Below are positions 11,397 through 35,580 of a stretch of 64,000 bases of DNA, one piece after another. Source of the DNA: Geobacter sp. SVR. Lineage in GTDB: Bacteria > Desulfobacterota > Desulfuromonadia > Geobacterales > Pseudopelobacteraceae. Each line of letters starts with the position of its first letter. Position 1 is the first letter of the stretch. The DNA is taken from the NCBI RefSeq assembly GCF_016865365.1, contig NZ_AP024469.1:3626501-3690500 (forward strand), written 5' to 3'. The notes under the pieces were generated by a model, which saw nothing but the letters and a program-made list of their open reading frames with translations, made no database searches and was not told where the DNA came from. A program made the position numbers and the translations under genes.

Positions 11397-12677
11397 TTAC
11401 GGATGCGGGAAGTCGATATTCTCCATGAACTTCGTTTCAAACAGCGGCGTTCCGGAAAGAGGTACCACCCGGAAGCGTTCGGCTAGGCGTTCCACGACGG
11501 AAAAGCCATCCTTCTCCGTCAGGGCCCGTTCCACGCCGGCCAGCGCCCCCTCGGGGGCAAAGCGGGTAATATGTACCATGGCTGAATCGAAAATTCCAAC
11601 GCTTTTAAGCCATTCGGGGCGTAAAACCGTACCGAATGATCCGGTCAGAACCACTTCCTGCATGCTCTGACACTGTATACGCGCCCGTTCCGCAAGCACA
11701 TCCAGGCCGGCCCGGATGGCACTTTTGGCCAGCTGGATCTGGCGGATGTCCCCCTGGGTCAGCAACAGCAGGTGCCGGGCATCACGGTGAAGTACAAAGG
11801 CGTTCTCATCATTGTGCCGGACAATCCGGGCAGCCAGGTTGGAAGGGATCTCGCCGCCGTCCCGCAGGCGTCCGCTCGATTCGAGCAGCCCCTTCTCGAG
11901 CAGTTCCGAGACCACCTCAATGGCTGCGGACCCGCAGATGCCGATCGGCGGCACATTGCCGATCACCGTGCAATGAACCCGTTCACCTGCGATGGTTACG
12001 GAGTTGATCGCACCGGGCAAGGCGGCCATGCCGCACGAGAGGTTGCCCCCTTCGAAGGCGGGACCGGCAGCAGCCGCGGTGGCCCAGATGTCATCCCCAG
12101 CCACCAGGGCCATTTCGCCGTTGGTGCCCAGATCGAGAAACAGGGCCTGGGAACTGGGGACTGGTGATTGGGAAAAGCCGTTACCAGTCCCCAATCCCCG
12201 GTCCCCAGTCCCAAATAAAAACGCCACCGTATCCCCCCCCACAAAACCGCCCGGCATGGGAAACAGGTAGACCGCCGCGGCGGGGTCCCAGCCGAGGTCG
12301 GAACCGTTGAGCCGCACGCCCTGCGTGTAAAGGGGCCGGAACGGGGGAAAGGCCAGGGAGCGTACCGGCAGTCCCAACAGAATGTGCTGCATGGCGGGAT
12401 TGCCGGCGATTGCAATCTGCTCGACATCGCTGCGCACAAGCCCGGAGTCCCGCAGAAGCCCGTCCGACAACCTCCACAGCTCCGCCCGCGCCAGGCCCGA
12501 CATCTCCCGCAGGGCTTCCTCGGATCTGACGGCAGCATCCAGTCGCGACACGACATCGGCCCCGAACCGGCGCTGCGGATTCAGGGAGCCTGCCACGGCC
12601 AGCCGCCGGCCGCTGCGGAGATCAACCAGGGAAACGGCCAGAGTGGTGGTGCCCAGGTCGATGGCAAGTGCGTACAT
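11397..12677 (-). CDS. ASKHA-domain protein related to corrinoid-protein reductive activators (DUF4445/RACo C-terminal type)
   Basis: The 426-residue protein starts with the ASKHA phosphate-binding motif (ALAIDLGTTTLAVSLVDL) and contains NPQRRFGADVVSRL, AGNPAMQHILLGL, GGFVGGDTVAFLF, LDLGTNGEMAL and GICGSAAIEVVSEL. These are the marks of the C-terminal domain of RACo/RamA-type activators, which reduce inactive Co(II) corrinoid proteins with ATP. The N-terminal 2Fe-2S ferredoxin domain of that family is absent. Between FLFG and ALFLDLGTNGE an extra segment of about 22 residues (GTGDRGLGTGNGF and SQSPVPSSQ) is encoded by a heptamer palindrome at 12148-12213 and interrupts a normally short loop. 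The partner corrinoid protein is not in the window. The neighbour selD is co-directional, 102 bases upstream. Confidence 0.8.
   Translation of the reverse strand: MYALAIDLGTTTLAVSLVDLRSGRRLAVAGSLNPQRRFGADVVSRLDAAVRSEEALREMSGLARAELWRLSDGLLRDSGLVRSDVEQIAIAGNPAMQHILLGLPVRSLAFPPFRPLYTQGVRLNGSDLGWDPAAAVYLFPMPGGFVGGDTVAFLFGTGDRGLGTGNGFSQSPVPSSQALFLDLGTNGEMALVAGDDIWATAAAAGPAFEGGNLSCGMAALPGAINSVTIAGERVHCTVIGNVPPIGICGSAAIEVVSELLEKGLLESSGRLRDGGEIPSNLAARIVRHNDENAFVLHRDARHLLLLTQGDIRQIQLAKSAIRAGLDVLAERARIQCQSMQEVVLTGSFGTVLRPEWLKSVGIFDSAMVHITRFAPEGALAGVERALTEKDGFSVVERLAERFRVVPLSGTPLFETKFMENIDFPHP
12148..12213. repeat. Heptamer palindrome inserted in frame in the ASKHA gene
   Basis: Left arm units GGGAACT, GGGGACT and GGTGATT face right arm units AGTCCCC, AATCCCC, GGTCCCC and AGTCCCA across a spacer of 16 bases. 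The total is 66 bases, or 22 codons, so the reading frame is kept. Unit and arrangement are the same as at 2184-2625. Confidence 0.85.
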
Positions 12678-12779: not shown

Positions 12780-13805
12780 TTACACTATCTCGATCACATG
12801 CTGCTGTGCCGGGAGCACCGTGCCGATCTCCCGGGCAAAGATTCCCCGTTCAGCCGCCTGCCGCATAAAGTGCCCCGCCTGCTCCGGCGCCAGTGCGATC
12901 AGCATGCCGCCGGAGGTCTGGGGATCGAACAGCGGCAGCAGCTCCTCCAGCCCGGATTCAACGTTGACCGACGGACCGTAGTGGTCGCGGTTGCGGTAAC
13001 AGCCGGCAGGCACCATACCGTCCATCATCAGTTCGGCAACGGAATGCATCAGTGGAACAGCGGCCAGCTCCAGCCGGAACGTCACCCCTGCCCCGCTGGC
13101 CATCTCCACGGCATGGCCGATCAGGCCGAAGCCGGTCACATCGGTGGCGGCACTGGCACGACACTCGCGCATCAGCTCCGTTGCCTGGCGGTTGAGAGTC
13201 GTCATCCAGCCTGCCGCTTCGGCAACAGCCGCCTCAGGTGCCAGCTCTGCCTTGATGGCAGTGGCGATGATCCCGGTGCCGAGCGGTTTGGTCAGTACCA
13301 GCACATCACCCGGCCGGGCGGTGGAGTTGCGGATAATCTCCTCAGGGTCGATCAGGCCGGTCACGGACAGGCCGTATTTCAGTTCGTCATCTTCAACCGT
13401 GTGTCCCCCCACCAGGCAGACACCGGCCTCCTGCAGCACGCTCTGCCCTCCGGCCAGTATCTCCCGCAGGACATCCCCCGGCAGCGAACAGGCGGGGAAA
13501 AAGACCAGGTTCATGGCGGTGACGGGCCGCCCCCCCATGGCATAGACATCGGATATGGCATTGGCCGCGGCAATCCGCCCAAAGGTGAAAGGATCGTCCA
13601 CCAGCGGGGTGATGATGTCGGCTGTCTCCACCAGGGCGCACGACGGCCCTATCCGGTAGACCCCGGCATCGTCCGATGTCTCCGGTCCCACCAGCAAATC
13701 TGCATCGCGGTATGCCCAAAGCCCGTCCAGGGCTTTCGCCAGGCCCGCCGGGCCCAGTTTCGCGGCTCAACCGGCGGCTTTTACCAGCTGCGTCAGTTTG
13801 ATCAT
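12780..13805 (-). CDS. selD: Selenophosphate synthetase SelD, selenoprotein with in-frame UGA
   Basis: The reading frame from the ATG at 13805 to 12780 is 341 residues, with one in-frame TGA at 13769-13767 (codon 13). The N-terminus reads [19 protein letters not shown], with the Sec exactly where SelD enzymes have their catalytic Sec or Cys before the conserved lysine. Downstream are [13 protein letters not shown], the [14 protein letters not shown] active-site region, [26 protein letters not shown] and [12 protein letters not shown]. The enzyme makes selenophosphate from selenide and ATP for Sec-tRNA synthesis. AGGAGAT precedes the ATG. Automatic callers that treat TGA as a stop would start at 13697 and lose the catalytic residue. 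Confidence 0.95.
13728..13769 (-). promoter_or_regulatory. UGA Sec codon and candidate bacterial SECIS hairpin of selD
   Basis: The G/C-rich stretch just after the UGA can fold (GGCCC/GGGCC on the minus strand at about 13744-13757) at the distance where bacterial SECIS elements bind SelB. The exact fold was not computed. Confidence 0.4.
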
Positions 13806-13871
13806 GCGGTCAATATCTCCTGTAACACTCATACCACCACTACAACTCGAATCAACAAAATCCCGAAAGCG

Positions 13872-13997: not shown

Positions 13998-15131
13998 CTA
14001 TTTCAGGTACACCCGCGGGACCCGCTTGCTGATCCCGCAGAAGATCTCGTAGGGGATCGTGCCGGCCGCCTGGGCCAGCTCTTCGGCAGGGATGCAGTTT
14101 CCAGCCGCATCGTTACCGATCAGTACCACTTCGTCCCCTACAGCAACATCCCTGATACCGGTCACATCCAGCATGATCCAGTCCATGCAGACCGTGCCGG
14201 CCACCCGTGCCCGCTCCCCCCTGACAAGCGCCTCTCCGCGGTTGGTCAGAGAACGGGGATACCCGTCGGCATAGCCGACCGGAACGCTTGCGATCAGGCA
14301 TCTGTCGCCGGCAGTGAAGCGCCGGGCATAACTGATGGTAGTGCCCGGTTCGACCCATTTCAGCATCGCGATGCGGCTCTTCAGGCGCATGACCGGACGC
14401 AGATCCAGCTTGCCCTTGAAATCGGGCGAAGGGACAGCTCCATACAGGGCAATGCCCGGCCGCACCAGGTTGCAGTCCGGGATATCTCTGAGCAGTGCCG
14501 CAGCACTGTTGGCGATATGGACATAGCGGGGGGCGAAGCCGGCCTTGCGGGTCTCGGCCAGCGCCCAGGCAAAGCGCTCAGCCTGAAGCCTGGTGTAGTA
14601 CTGACCCGATTCGTCGAGTTCATCGGCGCTGGCGAAGTGGGAGACAAGTCCCTCCATGGTGATGCTGGACAACTTTTTCAGCTCCATCAGAAAGGCGGGC
14701 ACGTCGGCATGGGGAATGCCGAGACGTCCCATGCCGGTATCGACCTTGAGATGGATCCGGGCCTTGCGGAAAAGTTTGTGGGCAGCCTGATTGAGCGCCT
14801 GGGCCTGTTCAAGAGAGAAAATGGTGGTCGAAATGTTGTAGCCGACGCATTTGCGCTCCTGCCCCGGATAGATGCCCCCCAGAAGCAGGATCGGCCTGTC
14901 GATGCCCGCCTTCCTGAGCTGGATCCCTTCGGCCAGAAAGGCCACCCCAAAGGCATCCACGTCCAGGTTCTCGAGCTCGCGGCAGATGTCCATGAATCCG
15001 TGCCCATAGGCGTCGGCCTTGACCACCGCCAGGATCTCCGTCCGGGGCGGAATGGAGCTCCTGATGGTCCGAAAATTATGGTGAAGTGCGCTCAGATCGA
15101 TCTCGGCGAATGTGGGGCGGCTGTCGTACAA
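13998..15131 (-). CDS. alr: Alanine racemase
   Basis: The 377-residue protein has the fold-type III PLP barrel motif [12 protein letters not shown] with the PLP lysine at residue 38, DTGMGRLGI, and [11 protein letters not shown] with the catalytic tyrosine of the C-terminal domain. It interconverts L- and D-alanine for peptidoglycan. The start is TTG at 15131 with GAGGAG nine bases upstream. Length is normal for the family. Confidence 0.95.
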
Positions 15132-16321: not shown

Positions 16322-19300
16322 ATGACATCCCTTCGAAAACGTCTGGACATACTCTTTGCCCTTGTCGCCGTACTTTGCCTTCTCCTCGGCGCATTGCCCG
16401 CAGGGGCTGCCGTGGGTCGGCACGAGGTCGTCTTCATTGATGCAGCGGTGCAGGACGCCCAGGCACTGGCGGATGGGATCAGGCCGGGGGTGGAGGTGGT
16501 CCGGCTTGACGCCGGACGGGACGGATCGGAACAGATGAGTGAGGTATTGGCCCACAGGCGGAATTTACAGGCAATTCATGTGATTTCTCACGGTGGGGAT
16601 GGCGAAATACAGCTGGGTACTCTGAAACTTTCCAATACCACTATCAATGATAAAAAAGCTGCGCTTGCTGCCATTGGTCAAGCATTGGTACCGGGAGGAG
16701 ACCTGCTCATTTATGGTTGTAATGTGGCCAAAAGTGCTTCGGGCAAGGAATTGATCAGCTCGCTGGCCAAAATAACAAAGGCGAATGTGGCTGCATCCAG
16801 TAACAACACCGGGGGGCTTGCAGGCGCGGATTGGGTTCTGGAGTATGCAACCGCTCCGGTTTCCTCGCCGGTCGCCATCGCCAGCACGGTAACCGATGCT
16901 TACAGATATAACCTGACGGCGCCGTACAGCGGAACCATCGATTTCGACAACAATGGAACCATAATAAATGCAGGCGGGGGGATTCCTGCGACCTTGGCGT
17001 CCTATAGTATCGGCGGGTATCTACTGACCGCAACGGACAACGGCGATATTGATATTTTTGACGCTGGCAGCGGCTCCGGCAACGAGCTTTTATTTGGTAC
17101 GAGCACTAGCGACGCTACAAATGTCGTCGTCAAGTTTTCCAACGACGAAGTCTTCAACATCGCCTCGCTCCGTATAAATGTTTTTCCTGGCGTGGATGTA
17201 GCTCATGGTCAGACTCCATATAATGCGGTATACACCATTTCGGGCTACAACGGGAGCACTCTGGTAAGTTCGGTCAATACGAACACTCTTTACGACCCCG
17301 GATACACTGTTAATTATGCAAACAGTATCCAAGTCGTAACCCTGAATTTCACCAATATCACCAAATTTACCATATCCAGATATTCCAGTAACGCGCCGGG
17401 AACAGGTATCGGTTGCACCATCGACAATCTGGTCGTGAGCAACGTCCACGCCGCCGCCACCCACACCGTCACCTTCGACGCCAACGGCGGCAGCGGCAGC
17501 ATGACCGTACAGACCTCCGGCAGCGCCACCGCCCTTACGTCCAACAGCTTTACGCGCACAGGTTACGCCTTTGCGGGCTGGAATACCGTTTCCGGCGGTG
17601 GTGGCACTGCCTACGCCAACGGCGCCAGCTATGGATTCGGCGCAGACGTAACGCTGTACGCACAGTGGACGGCTGTTGCCGCTGCTCCTACCGTTACCAC
17701 CCAGGCGGTATCGTCAATAGCCGCGACCACGGCTACCGCTAACGGCAACATAACCAGTCTCGGTTCACCCAACCCTACCCAGTATGGCGTGGTGTGGAAT
17801 ACCTCCACCGGCCCGACCACGGCTAACTCTAAAACCACCCAGGGGGCCATAGCCGCCACCGGCGCATTCACCAGCAGCATGACCGGACTCTCTCCCAATA
17901 CCACCTATTATGTCAGGGCATATGCCACCAATACGGCAGGTACCTCGTATGGTACTGAGGTTTCATTCACCACCAGCGGCGCTGCTCCAACTATCACCTC
18001 CGCCACCTACGACGCCAGCACCAACGCCCTGACCGTCACCGCCACCGGCATGACCACCAGCGATACCATCAATACAACCAAGCTGACCCTGACCGGCGAA
18101 GGCGGCAACACCTACACGTTGGCCGGCAGCTATACAGTCACGGCCAGCAACGCCACCTCCTTCTCCGTTACTCTCGATGCTACCGACCAACTCAACATCA
18201 GGGGCCTGCTGAATAAAAACGGCGCGACCGCGGCCGGCGGCACCACGTACAACCTGGCCGGCGCGGCCGGTTGGGACTCGACCCAAAGCGCCCCAGCCGA
18301 CCTGACCGGCAACGGGGTAACGGTCAGCAACGTACAGACCCCCACCATCACCTCCGCCACCTACGATGCCGGCACCGGGGTGCTCGTGGTCACCGGCGCC
18401 AACCTAGTCAAACAACCGGGCGCAACCAACGACATCGACGTGACAAAACTGGCCCTGACCGGACAAGGGGGCAGCGTCACCCTGACCGGCAATACCGCCA
18501 ATGTGGAAATCACCTCCGCCACCTCGTTCTCCGTGACCCTGGGCAGCACCGACAAGGCGGCGGTCAACGCCAAACTGGACAAGAACGGCACTTCTTCCAC
18601 CGGTAGTGTGACCTATAACCTGGCCGCCGCCGACGACTGGAACGGGCCGATTACCGGGGGCAGCATTGCCGATACGACCGGCAACGGGGTGACGGTGAGC
18701 GGGGTAGTGACAACCCCGAATGTGCAGGTCTATTACATCAGCAGCGATGGCAACGGATCTACCTTGGGCGCCACCGATGCTTTGAACCGTATCAACTCAG
18801 ACGGTAGCGGCGATACCGTTATTGCAAGTTCGATCAATCCAACACCGGGAGATTTGGCGTTGGATGTTGCTAATAACCGTGCCTTTTTCATCGGTGCGAC
18901 CACGACCAGCGCAAGCCAAGGTGTCTATCGTGTTGATCTGACCACCGGGGTAGTTTCCACCATCAAATCACTGACGACTGCCCCTAGTTATGGGGGAATC
19001 GCTTACGATTCGATAAACGACTATGTCTATTACATCGGCAGCGATGGTTCGACATCTACGCTCGGCGCAACCGATGCCCTGAATCGCATCAAGCCGGATG
19101 GCAGCGATGATACCGTCATTGCAAGTTCGATCAATCCGGCGCCAGGCGACCTGGCATTAGACATTGCGAACAATCGCGCTTTTTTCATCGGCGCGACCGG
19201 CTCAACACCAGGAGTTTATGGTATCGACCTGTCCTCCGGGACGGTTTCTACCATCAAAACGCTGACGACTGCTCCTGTTTATGGCGGCATTGCTTATGAT

Positions 19301-22300
19301 TCGATAAACGACTATGTCTATTACATCAGCAGCGATGGGGTATCTACGCTCGGCGCTACCGACGCCCTGAATCGCATCAAGCCGGATGGCAGTGGCGATA
19401 CCGTCATTGCAAGTTCGATCAATCCGGGGCCCGGCGACCTGGCATTGGACCTTCCGAATAATCGCGCCTTTTTTCTCGGTGCGGCCGGCTCGGCGCCAGG
19501 TGTCTATAGTATCAATCTGTCCTCCGGGGCGGTTTCAACCATCAAAACGCTGGCGGCGGTTCCAGCGTATGGCGGCATTGCTGTTACGGATGGCACTACT
19601 CCGACTTTCGATCCGGCAAATTCGTCACCTGTCGGCAACGCGACCGGCGTCAGCGGAACCGCCAATCTGTCCTTGCGTTTTAGTGAGGCCGTTATCAAAG
19701 GAACCTCGGGCAATTTCGTGATCCGCGACGTCACGGCCAATACGACGCTTGAAACCATTGCCTATAACGATGCCCGCGTGACCGGCTGGGGCACGAATAC
19801 GTTGACCATAGACCCCACGTCTACGTTGCCGTCGGGGCATGCGGTTTCCGTCCAATGGAGTGCGGGCGTAATCCAGGATTATTACGCTAACTTCGTCGCA
19901 GCCAACGCCACGGATACGCTTTACGACCTTACGATTGGCGGTTCTGCCGGTCCTGCCATTACCTCCGCCACTTACGACGCCAGCACCAACGTCCTGACTG
20001 TCACCGCAACCGGAATGAGCGCCGGCGACGTAATTGACACAACGAAACTGACCCTGACCGGAGAAGGCGGCAACACCTACACGTTGGCCGGTAGCTATAC
20101 GGTCACTGCCAGCAGCGCCACCTCCTTCTCCGTTACTCTCAATGCTACCGACCAACTTAATGTCAGGGGCCTGCTGAACAAGAACGGCACGACCGCGGCC
20201 GGCGGCACCACGTACAACCTGGCCGGTGCGGCCGGTTGGGACTCGACCCAGAGTGCCCCAGCCGACCTGACCGGCAACGGAGTGACGGTCAGCACCGTAC
20301 AGACCCCCACCATCACCTCCGCCACCTACGATGCCGGCACCGGGGTGTTGGTGGTCACGGGCGCCAACCTGGTCAAGCAACCGGGCGCAAGCAACGACAT
20401 CGACGTGACCAAATTGACCCTGACCGGACAAGGGGGCAGCGTCACCTTGACCGGCAACACCACCAATGTGGAAATCACCTCCGCCACCTTGTTCACCGTG
20501 ACCCTGGGCAGCACCGACAAGACGGCGGTCAACGCCAAGCTGGACAAGAACGGCACTTCTTCCACCGGCAGCGTGACCTATAACCTGGCCGCCGCCGACG
20601 ACTGGAATGGGCCGATCACGGGTGGCAGCATTGCCGATACGACCGGCAACGGCATCACGGTGAGCGGGGTGGCGACGCCCAACACCGCCCCTGTCATAAC
20701 CAGCTTAAACGGCGATGCGATGGCGTACACAGCGGGAACCGGGGCGCGGGTGATCGATCAGGGGACGGCGGTTGCCGTCACCGACAGCGACAGTGCCAAT
20801 TTTGATACCGGCACGTTAACCGTATCGGTCAGTGGCGCAACGGCGGCTGACGTGCTGGGCATCCGCAACCAGGGAAACGGTAGCGGGCTGATCGGCGTCA
20901 GCAGCGGCAACGTGACCTATGGCGGCACGACCATCGGCAGCTTCTCCGGCGGCAGCGGCTCCAATCTGGTGGTGACATTTAACAGCAACGCTACACCGAC
21001 AGCAGCTTCCGTGCTGCTTGCCAACATCACCTACAGCAATGCCAGTGCGGTCAGCGCCACAACGCGCTCAGTCAGTTTCACGATCACCGACGGCGACGGC
21101 GGCACCTCGACCGCCAGCACCGTTACCATCAGCGTCACACCCGCCAGTGTCGGCACGATTTACACCGTAACCAACCTCAACGACAGCGGCGCCGGTTCTC
21201 TGCGTCAGGCCATTATTGATTCCAATGGTCACACCGGTGCGGACACGATTGTCTTTACCCCCGGTTTGTCCGGCACGATTCATCTGCTTAGCAGGCTTGA
21301 CATCACAGACAGCGTCACGATCCAAGGCCCTGGTGCCGATGTCGTGACTATTGACGGCGCCAGTGCCACGCAGTTTCTGAAAACTGAAAATGGGGATGTT
21401 ACTACCAATATAAAAGTCACTATCACTGGTTTGGCCTTCGATCATGGCCGGATGGTTGATAACGACCCTGACCTCGGCTATGTCGGTGCGATTGATAACC
21501 GTGAAGACCTGACGCTTTCAAATGTTATCGTGAAAAATACTGCGGTAGGCACCCAATATCACGATGCCGCTTTTGCTGTTTCGACAATAGCTTCTGATTA
21601 CGCCACGTATGTGCCTAAACTGACCATACGTAACAGTGTAATTACCGGCAACGCGGGAACAGCGATTTTCTCTATTGCCGCAGCGTTGGTGGATATTGAA
21701 AACTCGACCATATCGAACACCAGCTTTATCGAAGGATCAGCGGGAGGAGGACTGAGTATCAATGGAGTGAGTTCAACGGTTATCAAGGGCAGTTATATTG
21801 CCGGCAATTCAGCCAAGTCTGGATCGGCACTATATTTCAGCCCGAGCAATAACTCCAGTGAAACGCTCTGGATCGAAAATTCCACCATTACCGGAAATAT
21901 CTCCGACCCAACAGGCTCGGGAGCTGGCGATGTCGATGGTGCGCTGGGGATTAACGCTTCCCTTGTCACCGCAGGCATGATCACAATCAAAAACTCCACA
22001 ATAGCAGGTAATCCCGGATACAACGGTGCTGCCAAACAAATTACCACCCCCTTGGGTAACGGCACCGATATTCCGATGCAGATAACCAACTCGATCGTGT
22101 ATTACGATGGCACTGGTGATGTGAAGTTTTCTACGGATCAGAACATCACTGCCAGCTACAACGTGATCGAAAACGTCGCGACCATTGACACGGCCATAGG
22201 CAATGTGACCGCGAACCCCAACCTTGTGGCGGCGGCGGCCAATGGCGGTCCTACTGAAACTTTGGCACTCAATTCAAGCAGTAACGCGATTAATTTGGGA

Positions 22301-25300
22301 GCTGCTTCCGCACCCACGACTGACCAACGCGGCTTCGTCCGCAACCCGGCGTCTGGAGTGGATGCTGGCGCTTACGAATACGGTGCTACGCAGTTTCAGT
22401 TCATCGGCCAGTCCAGACCGCTTGATGGAGCGGTAAATGTGGCGGTAAACTCAGGCATTACTCTGGATTTCGGAAGTACAATATCTGCCGGCACTGGAAG
22501 CATGCGTATCTACAATGCCGACACAAACGCACTGATTGAAACCATTTCGGTCGCAAGTGCCACCGTTTCCGGCAGCAGGGCGACATTCACACCTTCGTCC
22601 TCTCTCCCTGGCAGTACTAATATCTATGTTGAGGTGGATGCCGGAACTTTCACCGCCAGTGTTGACGGCGGCACCAACAACGCCGGCTCGGTTGCCATGC
22701 GTGATGCAACGGGCATCAGCTTCAAAACCGCATCCGCATCATCCACCTACACCGTCACCTACAACGGCAACGGCAACACCGGCGGCAGCGTGCCGACGGA
22801 CAGCAACAGCTACGCTAACGGCGCCACGGTCACCGTGCAAAGCAACAGCTTCGGCCTCACCCGGAGCGGTTATGTCTTTGCCGGCTGGAACAGCCTGGCC
22901 GACGGCACCGGCACGGACTATGCCGCCACCGGCAGCGCCACCTTCACCATGGGCAGCGCCAATAGGACGCTGTATGCCAAGTGGACGGCCGTCACCGGTC
23001 CCGGCGCCACCACCAGCGCCGCCACCGGTGTGGGACCCGACAGCGCCACCCTGAACGGCACCGTGACCGGCAGCGGTTCGTGGACCAGTGTCGGCTTCGA
23101 ATACGGCACAACCACCAGCTACGGCAGCTTCTCCAATGCAAGCCCCCGCATCCTCACCACCGGAGGAGCTACGGCGGTGACCGCCACGGTTACCGGACTC
23201 AGTTGCAGCACCACCTATCATTTCCGCGTTAACGGACAAAACAACGGGGGCGATCTGACGAACGGCTCCGACCTGACCTTCACCACAAGCGCCTGCACCG
23301 TCCCCGGTGCCCCCACCATCGGCACCGCTACGGCAGGCGACACCAAGGCAGTCGTTTCTTTCACCCCCCCGGCCGGCACCGGCGGCTCCGTCATTACCGG
23401 CTATACCGTTACTTCATCCCCCGGAAACATCACTGCCACCGGCACTGCCAGCCCCATCGTGGTGTCCGGCCTGACCAACGGCACCCCCTACACCTTTACG
23501 GTGACCGCCACAAATGCGCCGGCAGTGGCAGGCCAGAGCGCAGCTTCCGCAGTTTCCAATGCGGTCACCCCCTCGGCCTCCAGCCTGGGCATTGGAAGTG
23601 TAAAGATCATCAAGTTCGCCCTTAACGGCAGCAACCAGCCCACCGATGCCACGATCCAGGTAGCCGCCACCAACGCGGTACTCGGCGCCGGCGCCTTTAC
23701 CGTCACCAACAATGCGAATCCCTCCGCCACCATAACCGTGACCGGCGCTTCCTATGCCAATGGGGTGTATACCCTTACCGTCAGCGGCATGAACGTGATT
23801 GACACCTACACCCTCGCCGTCGCAGCCAACGGATACACGACCTACACCAATACCGGCGTCATCTATGGCCGGCCGTCGGAAGCCGGTGATCTCGACCTGG
23901 TGAATGAACCGAATATTTTCACCACCTACACCCGCACCCTCACCTCCGACGGAGTAGTGACCATCGGTAATGCCACCTACGCAGCCGGCGCGGTGCTCTA
24001 CTCCGGCGCAGCCTACGATGCCATCGACGGCAACAACGGCAATCCGGACAATGGAACCGTAACGCGCCTGATCGGCATCTTCGGCAAGGCGCCCAGCGGG
24101 GCAGCCTGCGTCAAAACCCTGCGGACCGACGGCACGATCCTGCAGGTGGCGAACGACTCCCTCATAGACGCCAACCCCAATTTCATGGAAACCATCCAGG
24201 GGGGCAAGGCGGCCTACGACGCAAACGCCAGCAACACCATCTATTGGCAGACCCTGGCCCTGCTTCCCATGTACAGTCAGATCGCTACGGCCCGCCAGCC
24301 GGACAACTCCCGTATTCTGGTGGACCCGGCCGACCGGTTCCGCATCATCGAGTGGTACGACACTGTGGACGTCAACGGTAACTGCACCGGCACACCCATG
24401 GATGTTCAGCGGCTGACAGTCAAGGTGGAATACACCGGCACTGCCGTTGGCCAGACCTCGGGATCAACGACCAGCATCGCCACCCAGCCGGCCGATGCCT
24501 CGGTCAGCGTCAACGGGACCGCCACCCTCACGGTGGGCGCAAGCACCACCAGCGGTTCGCTCTCCTACCAGTGGTACAGCAGTGCCACCAACAGCACCAG
24601 CGGCGGTTCCGCCATTAATGGCGCCACCTCCGGCAGCTACTCCCCGCCGACCGCATCGGCAGGCACCACCTACTATTACTGCATGGTGACCAACTCCGCC
24701 GGCAGCACGGGTACAAGCCGCGCCGCCCAGGTGGTGGTCTTGGCCCCCCAGACCATCGGCACGGTTTCCTTTACTCCCGCCTCCCTGCTGCCGAACGGCA
24801 CGGCTACGGTCAGCGCCACAGCCACTTCCGGCGGTGCGGTGACGTTCACATCCCTGACTCCGTCGGTATGTAGCGTCAGCGGAACTACTGTAACCGCCCT
24901 CACGGCCGGGGTCTGCAGCATTGCCGCCAACCAGGCGGGGAACACCACCTACGACACCGCACCCCAGGTGATCGGCACCATCACCGTCGCTGCTGCCGCC
25001 AACCGGGTGCACCTGACCCACAATTCGGCAACGACCGCGTACAACACCATCCAGGAGGCGGTCAACGCCTCGGCGGATGGCGATGTCATTGCCCTTGATT
25101 CCGGCACGTTCATCGAGCAGGTGACCATCACCACCAATGTCACCATTCAAGGGGCCGGAATCGGCCAGACCATCATTCAGTCCCCCTCTGCCGCAAGCCT
25201 GCTGCAAAACGGCGGCACCTGGAGAAACCTGAGAAACAAGAGCGTGTACGCGATCGTTGGCATCAAAACCGTGACCCCGGGCACCGTTACCATCACCGGC

Positions 25301-28300
25301 CTCACCGTGGACGGCCAAGTCCAGGGCAACATAAACCAGCCGGCCAACACCTACGGGTTCATGGGCATTGCCGCCATCAACTCGAACCTCACCGTGGACG
25401 GCGTGCGCATAACCGGCGTCAGGGATCTCAACCTGAACGCCGCCAGCATGGACCCCATCCCTGATTCGAGCTACGGCGCCACCCACACCTCGGGAGCGGA
25501 CAGCGGCGAGAGTATCTTCGCGGAAAGCGCCGCCGGCGCCGGCGAACATACCCTGGTGGTGAGAAACAGCACCATGGACGACATCCAGAAAGATGGCATC
25601 CTGGCCTGGGGCCCGACCCTGACGGTCGATATCCACGACAATACCATCCAGGGGCGCAAGACCTTCTACCAGTCGATAAACGGGATACAGATCGGCAGCT
25701 CGGACTACACCTCTTCCGGCGGCGGCGACCGGCGGGGCACCAAGGGGAGCGTCTCCAACAACACCATCCTCGATCTGGGCATGGTCATCCCGGTGGGACA
25801 CACCACCAGCGGGCTCTGGTTCAACGGCTGGGTCGGCGGCTCCACCGGCATCCTGGTATGGGAGGCCGGCAACGGGGTGACAGTTACGGGCAACACGATT
25901 ACCCGCACCGGCGACAAATCGTGGAAACTGGAATGGTACGCCAACCAGGGGATCGACTTCTACCTTTCACCGAACCCCACCGTAAGTAACAACACGGTTT
26001 CCGGGTTCGATTACGGCATCCTCGAAGAGGGCGCATCAAACGGCTCGGTCCTGACCGCGAGTGGAAATATCCTGTCAGCCAATACCGTTGACCTGTGGGC
26101 TTCTTCCGGCAATGACCAGATCACCCTGAACAATGCCAATAGTGAAGTGATCGGTTATCTGCTTTCCGGAAACGGCACCGATACGCTGACCAATTTCGGC
26201 ACGGGTGATGCCATCTACGTCAACAGCCTGGATGGCAGCAGCAGTTGGAACTTCACCGGCGGCACGGTAACGAGCGGCAACGGAAGCAACGTGGCCGCGC
26301 ATTCGGTACAAGTATCGGTTTCAGGTAACACCACGACTCTGTACATCGATACGGACGGCAATGCCGGTCCGGCCGAACTGCAAATCAACCTTGTCGGAAC
26401 GTATCTTCCGGCCAACTTTGTGCTGAGCGGCGCCTACATCCAATTCACCAAGGCCGGTCAGACCATCACCTTTGCCAATCCGGGCAGCCAGACCTACGGT
26501 ACGACGCCGACGCTGAGTGCCAGCGCCAGTTCCGGCCTTGCTCCCATATTCACTTCGTCCACCTCCGGCGTCTGCACCATCACCCCGGAAGGTGCCCTGA
26601 CTCTTGTCAGCGGCGGCACGTGCACCATCAACGCCAACCAGGCGGGCAACGCCTACTACAATGCGGCACCTCAGGTGACGCAGAGTTTCACTGTGAATCA
26701 GGCGGGCCAGACCATCGGCTCCATTTCCTTCACCTCCTCTTCCCTGACCGTATCGGGCACCACCACGGCCAGCGCCACCGCCACCTCCGGCGGTGCAATA
26801 ACCTTCAGCTCTCTGACGCCGTCGGTATGCACCGTGAGCGGCAGCACTGTTACCGGTATCGCGGCCGGTGTCTGCACCATTGCCGCGGATCAGACGGGCA
26901 ATGGTGGCTATGGCGCTGCACCGCAGGTAACAAAGAGCATTACGGTCGCTGCAGCGGCCAACAAAATACACCTGATCCACAACACCACCACGACCGATTA
27001 CACCACCGTTCAGGGGGCCGTGGATGCGGCTGCGGACAATGACGTCATCATGCTTGATGCAGGCACCTTCATCGAGCAGGTGACCATCACCAAGCCGCTC
27101 ACCCTGCAGGGGGCCGGCGTCGATCAGACCATCATCCGCTCCCCTGCCCGGGACAGCCTGATACAGAGCGGCGGAAACTGGAAAAACCTCAAGGATCAGG
27201 ACGTCATCGCCGTGGTGGGCATCAAGACCGCTTCGCCCGGAACCGTCATCCTCAGGAACCTGACCGTGGACGGCAATGATCAGGGCTATCTTGCCGACCT
27301 GCGGTATCCGGACAAGGGCACCTATACCTTCCAGGGAATCGGGGCATACCACACTACCGTCACCATCGACACGGTGAAGGTGACCGGTGTGCGCGAACTG
27401 AACACGGACTACGGCAATGACCCGGCCCACATCGTGCCCGCCGATTACCTCCCGGCAGACCAGCCTGCGGGCATGAACCACAACGAGGGCATCTTTGCCG
27501 AGAGCGCCGCTGGAGCCGGTGCACATACCCTGACAGTGAAAAACTCCACCGTCACCAAGTTCCAGAAGACCGCTATCCTGGCCTGGGGGCCGACCCTGAC
27601 GGTGGACATCGACAACAACACCATCCAGGGTTACGGCAAGAGCCTCTGGAGCACCGGCAACGCCATCCAGGTCGGATCTTCCGACAGAAGCGCCATGGGA
27701 GGCGCCAACGGAGACCGCCGCGGTACGGCGGGAACGGTCACCAACAACCGGATTCTGGACATCGGTATCGTCATACCGGAACCGGGACAGGACGGCTCCT
27801 ACCTGAATCTGGGACTGGCCGGCCCCTCCGGCGTCCTGCTGTGGGAGGTCGCCGACAGCTTCCGGATCACCGGCAACACCATCACCGGCCCCGGCATTTT
27901 CTCCTGGCACAGCAACATTTCTTCCAACGACGGCGGGTTCGGCAACATGGGGATCAATGTCTATAAAGGCCCCAATGTCACCATATCCGGCAACACGATT
28001 TCCGGGTTCGACGTCGGCATTATCGAAGAGAGCGCTGCCGTTGCCTCCAGTCTGGCCATTTCGGGCAACACCATGTCGAACAACACCGACGACATCTGGA
28101 CCTCAGCGGGCAATGACCACGTTTCGCTGGGCAGCGGCAGCGAAACCATCGCATTCAACCAGAGCGGCAACGGCATCGATACCATCACCAACTTCGGCAC
28201 CGGCGACAAAATTCATGTCATCGGCTTTACCACCGTCGGCGGAGTGGACTCGGTCAATGGCCTGATCAACGGTCAACCGGTGGTGGATTTCACCGGCGGT

Positions 28301-31018
28301 TCCGTGACAGCCGGGGACGGCAGCACTGTGGCAGCCAGATCGGTGCATGTCTCGGCGAGTGGGAACACCACCACGCTGTATGTGAATACCGACGGTGTTT
28401 CCGGCTCGCAATTGCAGATCACCCTTGACGGGACCTACACGCCCGCCAACTTCGTCCTGAACGGCGGGTACATCCAATTTACCAGGATTAACCAGACCAT
28501 CACCTTCGGCAACCCCGGCAACCAGATCTACGGATCAGGGGGAACACTGGCCGCAACCACTTCGTCCAATCTGGCTGTCACCTTCACATCCGCCACCCCC
28601 GGCGTCTGCACGGTGAGCAGCGACGGGACAATTACCTTCGTCGGTACCGGCACCTGCACCATCGTGGCCGACCAGACCGGTAATACTTTCTACAATCCCG
28701 CGTCTCACATGACACAGTCCTTCATCGTGGGCAAAGCCACTGCTTCCGTAACCCTCGGCGGTCTCAGCCAGACCTACGACGGCACGGCAAAATCGGCCAC
28801 CGCCACCACCACTCCCGCCGGCAGGACCGTCACCTTCACGTACGACGGCAGTTCCACTCCTCCGGTCAATGCCGGCAGCTACAACGTCGCGGCCGCGATC
28901 AACGACCCCAATTACAGCGGCAGTGCCAGCGGCACGTTGGTGATCGCCAAGGCGGGTCAAACCATCACGTTCGGCGCCGCTCCGTCGATCGTGGTGGGGA
29001 GCACCGGTACGATGAGCGCCACAGGCGGCGCATCCACCAGTGCCGTCAGCTTCAGCTCCACCACCCCGTTAGTCTGCACCATCAACGGCACTACCGTCAC
29101 CGGTATCGCAGCCGGCACCTGCATCGTCGCAGCGGACCAGGCAGGCAATGCCAACTATAACGCCGCACCCCGGGTGACGCAGACCATTACCGTCGGCAAG
29201 GGCAGCCAGACCATCACCTTCGGGGCGGCACCCAGCGTAGTGGTGAACGGCATCGGCACGCTCAGCGCTGTGGTCTCGTCCGGGCTCACGGTTTCCTATA
29301 CTTCCGTGACTCCCACGGTCTGCACCGTTAGCGGCGCCACTGTAACCGGCGTTGCGGCCGGTACCTGCACCATCGCCGCTGACCAGGCGGGGGACAATAA
29401 TTATAATGCCGCGCCCCGGGTGACGCAGAACATCACCGTTGGCAAGGGAAGCCAGACCATCGGTGCCATTGGCTTCACCTCCTCTACCCTCACCGTGGGG
29501 GCCACTGTCACGGCCAGCGCCACCGCCTCTTCCGGCCTGGGGGTCACTTTCAGTTCCCTGACGCCTGGTGTGTGCAGCGTAAGCGGAAGCACGGTTACCG
29601 GCATCACGGCCGGCATCTGCACCATCGCCGCCAGCCAGGCCGGTGATGCCAATTACAACGCCCCCACCCAGGTGACGCAGAACATCACCGTCGGCAAGGG
29701 AAGCCAGACCATCGGTGCCATCGGCTTCACACCCTCTACCCTCACCGTGGGGAGCACTGTCACGGCCAGCGCCACCGTCTCCTCCGGTCTGACCGTCGCC
29801 TTTGCCTCCACCACCCCCGCGGTCTGCACCGTCAGCGGCACCACGGTCACCGGGGTGAGCCCGGGCACCTGTACCATCACTGCCACCCAAACCGGCAACA
29901 GCGACTACACCTCCGCCACCATCAGCCAGACCCTGACCGTGGCCTACGGCACCAATCCGCCGCTGCTGACCGTATCCGCCCTCTCCGATGGGGCGACCAC
30001 CACCGACACCACCCAGAACATCAGCGGTGTGGCCACGGACCCGGCCGGCATCAGGTCCCTCACCATCAACGGCACGACCGTCCAGGTCAATGCGGACGGC
30101 AGCTTCAGCTTCCCGGTGCAACTGCTGGCCGGCGCCAACACCGTCACCGTAGTGGTCACCAACAAGGCCGGCATAACCACCACCGACACCCGCACCATCA
30201 CCCTGGACAGCACCGCACCACGCCTGTCGGTCACCTACCCGCCCGACAACGCCGTGGCTGTCCAGCAGAGCGTTACCGTAACCGGTACCATTGAATCCCT
30301 GTTCAGCGGGGGGTCGTCCAAGACCGCAGCCAAAACTGCTGCCGCTACGGTCGACCCCACCCTGGTGGTCACCTGGTCGGCCAACGGTTCGGCCCCCCAG
30401 ACCGCCAGCCTGACCGACACCACCTACTCCTTCACCACCAGCCTGGGCACCGGCATGAACACCATCAAGGTCTTCGCAGCCAATGCCGCCGGCCAGAAGG
30501 TGGAGGCCAAGCGCACCGTCAGCTACCAGCCGGCCTTCTACCTGGCAGTCACCGACCCGGCCGCTGACATCCGCACGGCACTGGGCTCCTACACCCTGAC
30601 CGGGAACGTAACCGACAACACCACCCCGGTCAGCGTCACCATCACCATGGACGGCCAGACCTACACCCCCGCGGTGACCAACGGTGTCTTCAGCCAGACC
30701 TTGAACTTCAGCGAAGCCCAGGTCTACCAGGTGGCGGTCACCGGCACGGACCAGAACAGCAACAGCCTGACCGTACAGCGCAACATCATCTACACCGTGC
30801 CCAAGGCAGCCTCCGGATCTGCCGACAGCACCCCCTTCACCATCGTGGATGCCCTGCAGGCCCTTCAGATGTCCGTTGGCATCATCACTCCCGATGCCGG
30901 GCAGATTACTCGCATGGATGTGGCCCCCATGGTGAACGGCGTCTCCGTGGGAGACGGCAAAGTGGACATCGAGGATGCCGTGGTGATCCTGCGCATGGTC
31001 GTGGGATTGATACGGTGA
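16322..31018 (+). CDS. Giant exported multidomain protein: DUF4347, beta-helix and Ig-like repeats, C-terminal dockerin-like domain
   Basis: At 4898 residues this is by far the largest gene. Order seen: signal peptide (1-30); DUF4347 (34-193) with HVISHGG (His90) and LIYGCNVA (Cys133); an anchor-type beta domain (200-377); InlB-type B-repeat (379-453); Fn3-like (454-550); repeat A1 (555-798); three propeller-like repeats (800-1093); Big_5-like (1094-1210); repeat A2 (1212-1456); cadherin-like (1457-1613); parallel beta-helix (1613-2023); Big_5-like; second B-repeat (2140-2223); two Fn3; Ig-like; second beta-helix (about 2895-3375) with a short RTX-like GNGTDTLTNFGTGD; third beta-helix (about 3545-4055); a run of Big/MBG repeats; and a dockerin-like end (about 4837-4898) with DAPMVNG-type and GDGKVDIEDAVVILR calcium loops. 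AAGGAG precedes the ATG. It is probably an adhesin or glycan-binding surface protein; ligand unknown. Confidence 0.9.
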   Translation: MTSLRKRLDILFALVAVLCLLLGALPAGAAVGRHEVVFIDAAVQDAQALADGIRPGVEVVRLDAGRDGSEQMSEVLAHRRNLQAIHVISHGGDGEIQLGTLKLSNTTINDKKAALAAIGQALVPGGDLLIYGCNVAKSASGKELISSLAKITKANVAASSNNTGGLAGADWVLEYATAPVSSPVAIASTVTDAYRYNLTAPYSGTIDFDNNGTIINAGGGIPATLASYSIGGYLLTATDNGDIDIFDAGSGSGNELLFGTSTSDATNVVVKFSNDEVFNIASLRINVFPGVDVAHGQTPYNAVYTISGYNGSTLVSSVNTNTLYDPGYTVNYANSIQVVTLNFTNITKFTISRYSSNAPGTGIGCTIDNLVVSNVHAAATHTVTFDANGGSGSMTVQTSGSATALTSNSFTRTGYAFAGWNTVSGGGGTAYANGASYGFGADVTLYAQWTAVAAAPTVTTQAVSSIAATTATANGNITSLGSPNPTQYGVVWNTSTGPTTANSKTTQGAIAATGAFTSSMTGLSPNTTYYVRAYATNTAGTSYGTEVSFTTSGAAPTITSATYDASTNALTVTATGMTTSDTINTTKLTLTGEGGNTYTLAGSYTVTASNATSFSVTLDATDQLNIRGLLNKNGATAAGGTTYNLAGAAGWDSTQSAPADLTGNGVTVSNVQTPTITSATYDAGTGVLVVTGANLVKQPGATNDIDVTKLALTGQGGSVTLTGNTANVEITSATSFSVTLGSTDKAAVNAKLDKNGTSSTGSVTYNLAAADDWNGPITGGSIADTTGNGVTVSGVVTTPNVQVYYISSDGNGSTLGATDALNRINSDGSGDTVIASSINPTPGDLALDVANNRAFFIGATTTSASQGVYRVDLTTGVVSTIKSLTTAPSYGGIAYDSINDYVYYIGSDGSTSTLGATDALNRIKPDGSDDTVIASSINPAPGDLALDIANNRAFFIGATGSTPGVYGIDLSSGTVSTIKTLTTAPVYGGIAYDSINDYVYYISSDGVSTLGATDALNRIKPDGSGDTVIASSINPGPGDLALDLPNNRAFFLGAAGSAPGVYSINLSSGAVSTIKTLAAVPAYGGIAVTDGTTPTFDPANSSPVGNATGVSGTANLSLRFSEAVIKGTSGNFVIRDVTANTTLETIAYNDARVTGWGTNTLTIDPTSTLPSGHAVSVQWSAGVIQDYYANFVAANATDTLYDLTIGGSAGPAITSATYDASTNVLTVTATGMSAGDVIDTTKLTLTGEGGNTYTLAGSYTVTASSATSFSVTLNATDQLNVRGLLNKNGTTAAGGTTYNLAGAAGWDSTQSAPADLTGNGVTVSTVQTPTITSATYDAGTGVLVVTGANLVKQPGASNDIDVTKLTLTGQGGSVTLTGNTTNVEITSATLFTVTLGSTDKTAVNAKLDKNGTSSTGSVTYNLAAADDWNGPITGGSIADTTGNGITVSGVATPNTAPVITSLNGDAMAYTAGTGARVIDQGTAVAVTDSDSANFDTGTLTVSVSGATAADVLGIRNQGNGSGLIGVSSGNVTYGGTTIGSFSGGSGSNLVVTFNSNATPTAASVLLANITYSNASAVSATTRSVSFTITDGDGGTSTASTVTISVTPASVGTIYTVTNLNDSGAGSLRQAIIDSNGHTGADTIVFTPGLSGTIHLLSRLDITDSVTIQGPGADVVTIDGASATQFLKTENGDVTTNIKVTITGLAFDHGRMVDNDPDLGYVGAIDNREDLTLSNVIVKNTAVGTQYHDAAFAVSTIASDYATYVPKLTIRNSVITGNAGTAIFSIAAALVDIENSTISNTSFIEGSAGGGLSINGVSSTVIKGSYIAGNSAKSGSALYFSPSNNSSETLWIENSTITGNISDPTGSGAGDVDGALGINASLVTAGMITIKNSTIAGNPGYNGAAKQITTPLGNGTDIPMQITNSIVYYDGTGDVKFSTDQNITASYNVIENVATIDTAIGNVTANPNLVAAAANGGPTETLALNSSSNAINLGAASAPTTDQRGFVRNPASGVDAGAYEYGATQFQFIGQSRPLDGAVNVAVNSGITLDFGSTISAGTGSMRIYNADTNALIETISVASATVSGSRATFTPSSSLPGSTNIYVEVDAGTFTASVDGGTNNAGSVAMRDATGISFKTASASSTYTVTYNGNGNTGGSVPTDSNSYANGATVTVQSNSFGLTRSGYVFAGWNSLADGTGTDYAATGSATFTMGSANRTLYAKWTAVTGPGATTSAATGVGPDSATLNGTVTGSGSWTSVGFEYGTTTSYGSFSNASPRILTTGGATAVTATVTGLSCSTTYHFRVNGQNNGGDLTNGSDLTFTTSACTVPGAPTIGTATAGDTKAVVSFTPPAGTGGSVITGYTVTSSPGNITATGTASPIVVSGLTNGTPYTFTVTATNAPAVAGQSAASAVSNAVTPSASSLGIGSVKIIKFALNGSNQPTDATIQVAATNAVLGAGAFTVTNNANPSATITVTGASYANGVYTLTVSGMNVIDTYTLAVAANGYTTYTNTGVIYGRPSEAGDLDLVNEPNIFTTYTRTLTSDGVVTIGNATYAAGAVLYSGAAYDAIDGNNGNPDNGTVTRLIGIFGKAPSGAACVKTLRTDGTILQVANDSLIDANPNFMETIQGGKAAYDANASNTIYWQTLALLPMYSQIATARQPDNSRILVDPADRFRIIEWYDTVDVNGNCTGTPMDVQRLTVKVEYTGTAVGQTSGSTTSIATQPADASVSVNGTATLTVGASTTSGSLSYQWYSSATNSTSGGSAINGATSGSYSPPTASAGTTYYYCMVTNSAGSTGTSRAAQVVVLAPQTIGTVSFTPASLLPNGTATVSATATSGGAVTFTSLTPSVCSVSGTTVTALTAGVCSIAANQAGNTTYDTAPQVIGTITVAAAANRVHLTHNSATTAYNTIQEAVNASADGDVIALDSGTFIEQVTITTNVTIQGAGIGQTIIQSPSAASLLQNGGTWRNLRNKSVYAIVGIKTVTPGTVTITGLTVDGQVQGNINQPANTYGFMGIAAINSNLTVDGVRITGVRDLNLNAASMDPIPDSSYGATHTSGADSGESIFAESAAGAGEHTLVVRNSTMDDIQKDGILAWGPTLTVDIHDNTIQGRKTFYQSINGIQIGSSDYTSSGGGDRRGTKGSVSNNTILDLGMVIPVGHTTSGLWFNGWVGGSTGILVWEAGNGVTVTGNTITRTGDKSWKLEWYANQGIDFYLSPNPTVSNNTVSGFDYGILEEGASNGSVLTASGNILSANTVDLWASSGNDQITLNNANSEVIGYLLSGNGTDTLTNFGTGDAIYVNSLDGSSSWNFTGGTVTSGNGSNVAAHSVQVSVSGNTTTLYIDTDGNAGPAELQINLVGTYLPANFVLSGAYIQFTKAGQTITFANPGSQTYGTTPTLSASASSGLAPIFTSSTSGVCTITPEGALTLVSGGTCTINANQAGNAYYNAAPQVTQSFTVNQAGQTIGSISFTSSSLTVSGTTTASATATSGGAITFSSLTPSVCTVSGSTVTGIAAGVCTIAADQTGNGGYGAAPQVTKSITVAAAANKIHLIHNTTTTDYTTVQGAVDAAADNDVIMLDAGTFIEQVTITKPLTLQGAGVDQTIIRSPARDSLIQSGGNWKNLKDQDVIAVVGIKTASPGTVILRNLTVDGNDQGYLADLRYPDKGTYTFQGIGAYHTTVTIDTVKVTGVRELNTDYGNDPAHIVPADYLPADQPAGMNHNEGIFAESAAGAGAHTLTVKNSTVTKFQKTAILAWGPTLTVDIDNNTIQGYGKSLWSTGNAIQVGSSDRSAMGGANGDRRGTAGTVTNNRILDIGIVIPEPGQDGSYLNLGLAGPSGVLLWEVADSFRITGNTITGPGIFSWHSNISSNDGGFGNMGINVYKGPNVTISGNTISGFDVGIIEESAAVASSLAISGNTMSNNTDDIWTSAGNDHVSLGSGSETIAFNQSGNGIDTITNFGTGDKIHVIGFTTVGGVDSVNGLINGQPVVDFTGGSVTAGDGSTVAARSVHVSASGNTTTLYVNTDGVSGSQLQITLDGTYTPANFVLNGGYIQFTRINQTITFGNPGNQIYGSGGTLAATTSSNLAVTFTSATPGVCTVSSDGTITFVGTGTCTIVADQTGNTFYNPASHMTQSFIVGKATASVTLGGLSQTYDGTAKSATATTTPAGRTVTFTYDGSSTPPVNAGSYNVAAAINDPNYSGSASGTLVIAKAGQTITFGAAPSIVVGSTGTMSATGGASTSAVSFSSTTPLVCTINGTTVTGIAAGTCIVAADQAGNANYNAAPRVTQTITVGKGSQTITFGAAPSVVVNGIGTLSAVVSSGLTVSYTSVTPTVCTVSGATVTGVAAGTCTIAADQAGDNNYNAAPRVTQNITVGKGSQTIGAIGFTSSTLTVGATVTASATASSGLGVTFSSLTPGVCSVSGSTVTGITAGICTIAASQAGDANYNAPTQVTQNITVGKGSQTIGAIGFTPSTLTVGSTVTASATVSSGLTVAFASTTPAVCTVSGTTVTGVSPGTCTITATQTGNSDYTSATISQTLTVAYGTNPPLLTVSALSDGATTTDTTQNISGVATDPAGIRSLTINGTTVQVNADGSFSFPVQLLAGANTVTVVVTNKAGITTTDTRTITLDSTAPRLSVTYPPDNAVAVQQSVTVTGTIESLFSGGSSKTAAKTAAATVDPTLVVTWSANGSAPQTASLTDTTYSFTTSLGTGMNTIKVFAANAAGQKVEAKRTVSYQPAFYLAVTDPAADIRTALGSYTLTGNVTDNTTPVSVTITMDGQTYTPAVTNGVFSQTLNFSEAQVYQVAVTGTDQNSNSLTVQRNIIYTVPKAASGSADSTPFTIVDALQALQMSVGIITPDAGQITRMDVAPMVNGVSVGDGKVDIEDAVVILRMVVGLIR
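17985..18715 (+). repeat. Long internal direct repeat A, copy 1
   Basis: About 730 bases inside the giant gene, encoding two paired Ig-like units beginning TITSATYDASTNALTV and TITSATYDAGTGVLVV. It is nearly identical to 19954-20690, differing by scattered substitutions. Confidence 0.85.
18720..19590 (+). repeat. Three tandem propeller-like repeats in the giant gene
   Basis: Three units of roughly 290 bases each encode YYISSDG, STLGATDALNRI, DTVIASSINP, PGDLALD and NNRAFF in the same order. They resemble the blades of a beta-propeller (LVIVD/YncE-like). Confidence 0.8.
19954..20690 (+). repeat. Long internal direct repeat A, copy 2
   Basis: This is the second copy of the repeat at 17985-18715, separated from it by the propeller and Big_5-like domains. 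The close DNA similarity indicates a recent duplication or gene conversion. Confidence 0.85.
25005..28490 (+). repeat. Paired beta-helix modules (two diverged copies)
   Basis: Segments 25005-26450 and 26955-28490 share the order IHLTHN-like start, TTVQ.AVD, DAGTFIEQVTIT, IQGAG..QTII, LTVDG, AESAAGAG.HTL, ILAWGPTLTVDI and GTGD. Each is a pectate-lyase/NosD-like right-handed beta-helix followed by a Big-type domain, so the whole unit was duplicated. Confidence 0.8.
28490..29945 (+). repeat. Tandem Big/MBG-type repeats
   Basis: Six units begin QTITFG or QTIGAIGFT and end with GTCTIAADQAG followed by VTQ and VGKGSQT. One MBG-type unit (VTLGGLSQTYDGTAKSATAT) lies at 28735-28955. Adjacent units are close at DNA level, favouring copy-number change by recombination. 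Confidence 0.8.
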
Positions 31019-32253: not shown

Positions 32254-32267
32254 AGACACGATACAAG

Positions 32268-32355
32268 GCCCTGGGGGAGTTCTGACGAACTGAGATGATT
32301 CCGCGGAATCAGACCCTTTGAACCTGAACCGGGTAATGCCGGCGGAGGAAAGCGG
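32268..32355 (+). ncRNA. TPP riboswitch (THI element)
   Basis: The conserved core is complete: CTGGGGGAG near the 5' end, GAACTGAGATGATTC, ACCCTTTGAACCTGA and GGGTAATGCCGGCGGAGGAA. It binds thiamine pyrophosphate in the nascent leader and would switch off thiED-thiC when TPP is plentiful. The following terminator at 32379-32421 is the likely expression platform. Confidence 0.95.
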
Positions 32356-32378
32356 CTCATGTGGTATTGCCCCTTGCG

Positions 32379-35302: not shown

Positions 35303-35340
35303 ACGGGTAGAAGCCTTGCGGCTCCTACCCGTTTTTTTAT
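35303..35340 (+). terminator. Rho-independent terminator of the thiamine operon
   Basis: The stem CGGGTAG(A)AGCC with GGCT(C)CTACCCG is followed by seven T. From 35341 to 35580 no gene, RNA or further repeat is evident. Confidence 0.88.
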
Positions 35341-35580
35341 CTCTCCGTCCTGCCGCCTGCTATAAGGACCTCCGGCGAGTTCCTTAACAGGTGGGCGACC
35401 ATATACTGCTTCAGGCAATTCCCGCGCAATGGGGCAGCACACCACAGTAGAGAAGGTCCCCCGTTCTTATGTTTATTCCGCCCGGGTACTGCAGCCGACA
35501 AACAGGACAGAGAGAATGTTTGTTGTATTATCACATCCGGCCATGGCCTTTACAAGCGATTTAAGATTAATATCCAGCCA

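Follow-up and report, generated by a model that had tools for sequence, protein, structure and literature searches.

A selD gene of Geobacter sp. SVR whose in-frame TGA is in all likelihood read as selenocysteine

We have analysed a window of 64,000 nucleotides (nt) from the genome of Geobacter sp. SVR (contig NZ_AP024469.1, positions 3,626,501 to 3,690,500) and find that its selD gene carries an in-frame TGA at the position of the catalytic residue. The SelD of the window is almost certainly a normal selenocysteine (Sec)-containing selenophosphate synthetase whose UGA is decoded by means of a SECIS element, SelB and Sec-tRNA-Sec, with the actual insertion of Sec being what we infer. The finding is very probably real and correctly read, and of a kind already published for this bacterial group. 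For annotation the finding amounts to a correction, in that the real selD starts 108 bases upstream of the plain open frame and contains Sec.

Background

SelD was listed in 2006 among the selenoproteins of Geobacter sulfurreducens, G. metallireducens and 'G. uraniumreducens' (name as printed; PMC1794560, Table 3). These species belong to the same bacterial group as the window and their SelD is likewise a selenoprotein, a likeness drawn from the listing. The window's genome adds one more member to the group, and its SelD shows no departure from what is listed. Elsewhere in the available part of that source, FdhA and SelD are described as the most widespread selenoproteins, Sec-to-Cys changes in SelD are reported, and it is suggested that the Sec trait may persist for the sake of SelD, an enzyme supporting both itself and selenouridine synthesis. 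In the SelD/SPS2 family, according to the available part of PMC4561486, Sec always occurs at one position, Cys is found in the other prokaryotic forms, and bacterial SECIS elements have been found in Sec-SelD genes. The window's gene shares the Sec position and, probably, a SECIS with the forms described there, and no difference from that part of the source was found. A literature search for Pelotalea together with selenocysteine found no paper.

Methods

SelD sites were read via tblastn in fetched loci, including the window's own genome (one contig of 4,717,360 bases); many genes are present twice, having been reached by two routes. The translation start was analysed in 65 distinct sequences, namely the window and 64 relatives with more than 60% identity and a TGA at the site. 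For the folding sample, near-identical genes were removed, which reduced 141 sites to 116 (93 TGA and 23 Cys); the 93 TGA genes comprise 28 distant Sec genes and 65 close ones, among which the window is counted. Local folding was tested in 23-nt windows, with windows from the same gene, synonymous shuffles and Cys genes as controls; the results for distant Sec and for Cys genes serve as a check on the test. The codon-usage comparison used 22 Cys genes, the fusion L018 being left out. A quick maximum-likelihood tree was built from 127 of 159 rows; identical proteins and rows shorter than 250 residues (L169 among them) were left out, and long branches were flagged. The Cys-SelD loci of the window's family used for neighbour counts were L023-L026, L028-L030, L033-L040, L042-L044 and L046-L047, and L018, L110 and L111 were also counted.

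Results and discussion

The selD gene and its in-frame TGA

The features of the selD region are collected in Table 1.

Table 1 Features in and around selD, in window positions
Feature	Position	Strand	Remarks
RACo-like ASKHA gene (Raco_middle + RACo_C_ter)	11397..12677	-	downstream of selD; frequent neighbour of close Sec-type selD
selD, selenide, water dikinase	12780..13805	-	341 codons + stop, TGA read as Sec
Probable SECIS hairpin	13739..13757	-	8-bp stem, GGC loop (13747-13749), -12.9 kcal/mol in 23-nt fold
In-frame TGA, Sec codon	13767..13769	-	codon 13 of selD; catalytic Sec/Cys position of the family
AGGAG, likely ribosome-binding site for ATG 13805	13817..13821	-	spacing 11 nt; by eye
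Alternative in-frame ATG, disfavoured as start	13830..13832	-	relatives' upstream region without coding pattern
Alanine racemase (alr)	13998..15131	-	upstream of selD; frequent neighbour of close Sec-type selD

On the minus strand the gene begins ATG(13805)-ATC-AAA-CTG-ACG-CAG-CTG-GTA-AAA-GCC-GCC-GGT-TGA(13769-13767), and past the TGA its frame is open and intact to the stop at 12780. The plain list of open reading frames opens this frame only at TTG 13697. The original prediction had placed the start 108 bases upstream of that codon and had described 13767-13805 as a SelD N-terminus followed by TGA at codon 13, and this is what the sequence holds. SelD membership was judged by a full-length match above the equivalog cut-off and by a catalytic Sec or Cys with Lys three residues on, and both were found. 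Against the SelD equivalog TIGR00476 (cut-off 125), the read-through protein reaches 379.2 bits over model positions 1-311 of 311, the match beginning at residue 13 of the translated stretch, and it contains the AIRS and AIRS_C domains. The context of the site is AAG-U-AAK, which aligns with the Cys of the solved SelD chains 3u0o and 2yye (the two best are given); the Sec or Cys of this N-terminal loop and the Lys three residues on are presumably the catalytic residues. The gene is a selenide, water dikinase (selenophosphate synthetase) gene, with activity predicted from these matches.

That codon 13 is the catalytic Sec/Cys site had been part of the original prediction, and it is borne out by all 158 SelD sites that were read (own genome and duplicates included), at which the codon is TGA (128), TGT (17) or TGC (13).

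Selenium machinery in the genome

A bacterial selenoprotein gene is expected in a genome with SelA, SelB and tRNA-Sec, and the original prediction had held that the organism must have them. All were found: SelA at 497.7 bits, SelB at 353.7 bits across its frame, where the cut-off is 242.25, and with two winged-helix domains of the SelB type, and tRNA-Sec at 77.8 bits, which ARAGORN reports as tRNA-SeC with anticodon tca. As these are present, the objection that had been named beforehand, a genome with neither tRNA-Sec nor selB, does not apply. SelU/YbbB was also found (346.7 bits). Two formate-dehydrogenase-like frames of the genome, whose matches to the Fdh-alpha model do not reach its cut-off, have one in-frame TGA each, in the contexts EHQARI-TGA-HSATVA (C1:521430) and EHQARL-TGA-HSATVA (C1:537975); we take this motif to be the FdhA Sec site.

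A candidate SECIS hairpin

The hairpin in Table 1 is 19 nt long and begins 12 nt beyond the UGA's first base; its loop starts 17 nt after the UGA. For bacterial SECIS elements, the legend of Fig. 2 of PMC13188914 gives a loop of 3-9 nt, a spacing of 16-37 nt, a G in the first two loop positions and an MFE under -7.5. The hairpin lies just 3' of the UGA, as is required of a bacterial selenoprotein gene, and falls within these four constraints in loop length, loop G's, spacing and MFE (-12.9 kcal/mol). It resembles the consensus of that legend in its 3-nt loop, the G in the first two positions, the 8-bp stem, the spacing and the MFE, although its loop and spacing lie close to or at the lower limits given there. 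It is a probable SECIS, and the check that had been proposed for the region 13720-13770 has thus turned up a structure that fits the bacterial SECIS model.

No other scored window within the window's selD folds as strongly. The median local MFE was -12.9 for the 65 close Sec genes, -6.1 for the 28 distant Sec genes and -3.2 for the 23 Cys genes, with Mann-Whitney p-values against the Cys genes of 1.1e-12 (close Sec) and 3.6e-8 (distant Sec), which are descriptive because the 23-nt window had been selected with the folds already in view. The hairpin was among the lowest 5% of the windows of its own gene in 55 of 65 close Sec, 10 of 28 distant Sec and none of 23 Cys genes. The 5% level of the synonymous shuffles was reached by 19/65, 16/28 and 1/23, respectively, the window's hairpin standing at exactly 0.05. 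When the whole region was folded (48 nt, synonymous shuffles), neither the window (z +0.38) nor the close Sec group (mean z -0.07) stood out; the mean z was -0.74 for distant Sec and -0.12 for Cys genes.

Of the cells in the Sec alignment (93 sequences giving 88 distinct rows), 87.1% were paired, as compared to a shuffled mean of 83.3, and none of 500 shuffles was as high; in the Cys alignment (23 sequences) 44.6% were paired, no better than shuffles. In 23 of the 88 rows, one stem pair of the Sec alignment is U-A instead of C-G. Changes on both sides occur in only one of its eight stem pairs, which is not above shuffles, and by the 'further pair types' measure its helix does not exceed shuffles either. 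In the 65 Sec genes, codon usage would predict more variety than is seen at codons 4, 5 and 7-9 downstream of the UGA (codon 4 is CTG in 61 and codon 5 GGC in 60), and likewise at the two codons preceding it. Among the 22 Cys genes the excess of uniformity is smaller at codons 4, 5, 7 and 9, and at codon 8 the commonest residues differ. Rfam, which may or may not hold a bacterial SECIS model, listed no SECIS in the window at gathering scores.

Start site and other readings of the TGA

Translation could also begin at ATG 13832, giving a Sec-SelD with nine more residues from nine codons upstream, and this ATG is in frame, with no stop between it and ATG 13805 in the window. In the 65 sequences, however, variation at codon positions 1/2/3 is 0.097/0.066/0.386 over codons -11 to -1 before the TGA, a coding pattern, whereas over codons -32 to -17 it resembles that of non-coding DNA (0.686/0.647/0.663). 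As the coding pattern is found at codons -11 to -1 and is absent from -32 to -17, translation is taken to begin near codon -12, which in the window is ATG 13805. This start is further favoured because 19 of the 65 sequences have a stop at most 21 codons before the Sec codon. The ribosome site that had been claimed ahead of the SelD start is likely the AGGAG read there by eye, which looks better than what precedes the upstream ATG. The longer form is accordingly unlikely, and we retain ATG 13805.

The TGA itself might be a real stop, either in a pseudogene or ahead of a short protein that starts at TTG 13697 and lacks the catalytic residue, and the plain list of open reading frames shows exactly such a frame. 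This reading is extremely improbable in view of the 128 SelD sites, out of 158 read, that have TGA there, the codon-position pattern upstream of the TGA, the intact remaining frame and the presence of SelA, tRNA-Sec and SelB. We give hardly any credence, too, to a TGA read as an amino acid other than Sec, through near-cognate read-through or a reassigned code. Such a reading could appeal to the fact that Sec has been read here from sequence, but across the 158 sites no codons other than those for Cys take the place of TGA, the hairpin conforms to the SECIS model, and the Sec-specific tRNA is present together with SelA and SelB. The claim that SelD is itself a selenoprotein is therefore upheld by the TGA at codon 13, the machinery in the genome and the SECIS-like hairpin.

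Predicted dependence of SelD on its own product

In the Sec reading, ribosomes would start at ATG 13805 and meet the UGA at codon 13, where the hairpin just 3' of it would recruit SelB with Sec-tRNA-Sec, so that Sec would enter the catalytic loop of SelD. Selenophosphate is used by SelA in the synthesis of Sec-tRNA and by SelU in the formation of tRNA selenouridine, and the window's SelD would make it for SelA and probably for SelU. When selenophosphate is lacking, the UGA would act as a stop after 12 residues, and SelD would therefore depend on its own product for its own synthesis, as judged from the pathway. A self-dependent enzyme is neat biology, but it is already established. It is conceivable, though doubtful, that the dependence forms a selenium-sensing, switch-like positive feedback in these bacteria, and that the patchy distribution of SelD types in the family reflects escape from it, the native Sec-SelD being replaced by a distant Cys-SelD that was taken up, often together with selU.

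Sec and Cys forms of SelD among relatives

In a class-wide search, 245 of 277 genomes had a SelD match above the cut-off. Among the 76 genomes of the window's family there were 41 with Sec-SelD, 28 with Cys-SelD and seven without a match at E 1e-20 or a readable site (G206, G209, G214, G217, G218, G244 and G270). SelA and tRNA-Sec were both found in 33 of the Sec-SelD genomes, one of the two in six and neither in two; for Cys-SelD genomes the counts were 20 with both and eight with neither. By the search, the two were thus missing together in 10 of the 69 family genomes with a SelD site read, and all eight of these that are at least 92% complete have Cys-SelD. Seven of the eight Sec-SelD genomes for which the search lacked SelA or tRNA-Sec are at most 88% complete. 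The other, G203 (98% complete), has Sec-SelD and SelA and no tRNA-Sec above the cut-off, which is possibly an assembly gap (220 contigs). With Sec and Cys forms side by side, this one family would offer a good natural experiment for asking why certain lineages retain Sec in SelD.

In the quick tree, 28 of 29 Cys rows (26 from the window's family and two others) lie on one starred branch among distant SelDs, apart from the branch of 70 rows that holds the Sec forms of the Geobacter group. The nearest rows to the remaining one, L018, are Sec-type SelDs in long frames. By their place there, those Cys-SelDs of the family that the tree includes appear to be of a distant type and not codon variants of the native gene. 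Gene neighbourhoods (counted with duplicates, in flanks of at most 1.5-3 kb) differ as well. At the 89 close Sec-type loci, alr was seen upstream in 75 and a RACo-like gene downstream in 73; the RACo-like protein of the window apparently lacks the N-terminal ferredoxin part usual in such proteins. Within such flanks neither gene was seen at the 23 Cys loci, 12 of which have selU downstream, and alr, the RACo-like gene and selU were all unseen beside the 28 distant Sec loci. The simplest reading is that the native gene may have been displaced by a transferred selD-selU pair.

Some SelD loci were unusual. SelD lies within long open frames of 407-760 aa at L019-L022 and L027 (same order) and at L018 (same family), with TGA at the site in five and TGC in one; these are perhaps the known NADH-dehydrogenase-like fusions mentioned in the available part of PMC4561486. 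One genome, G247, for which 6% contamination is given, has several SelD pieces, namely a plain Cys main copy with TGC (C721), another Cys copy inside a frame of 747 aa (C586) and, on C597, a pair of pieces of which one has a TGA. A Cys-SelD with one in-frame TAG was found at G222:C142:830-1828 (L169).

Elsewhere in the window, positions 16322-31018 on the plus strand form a single open frame of 4898 aa that is repeat-rich by eye, and Rfam places a TPP riboswitch at 32263-32367 on the plus strand and a 6S RNA at 35338-35516 on the minus strand.
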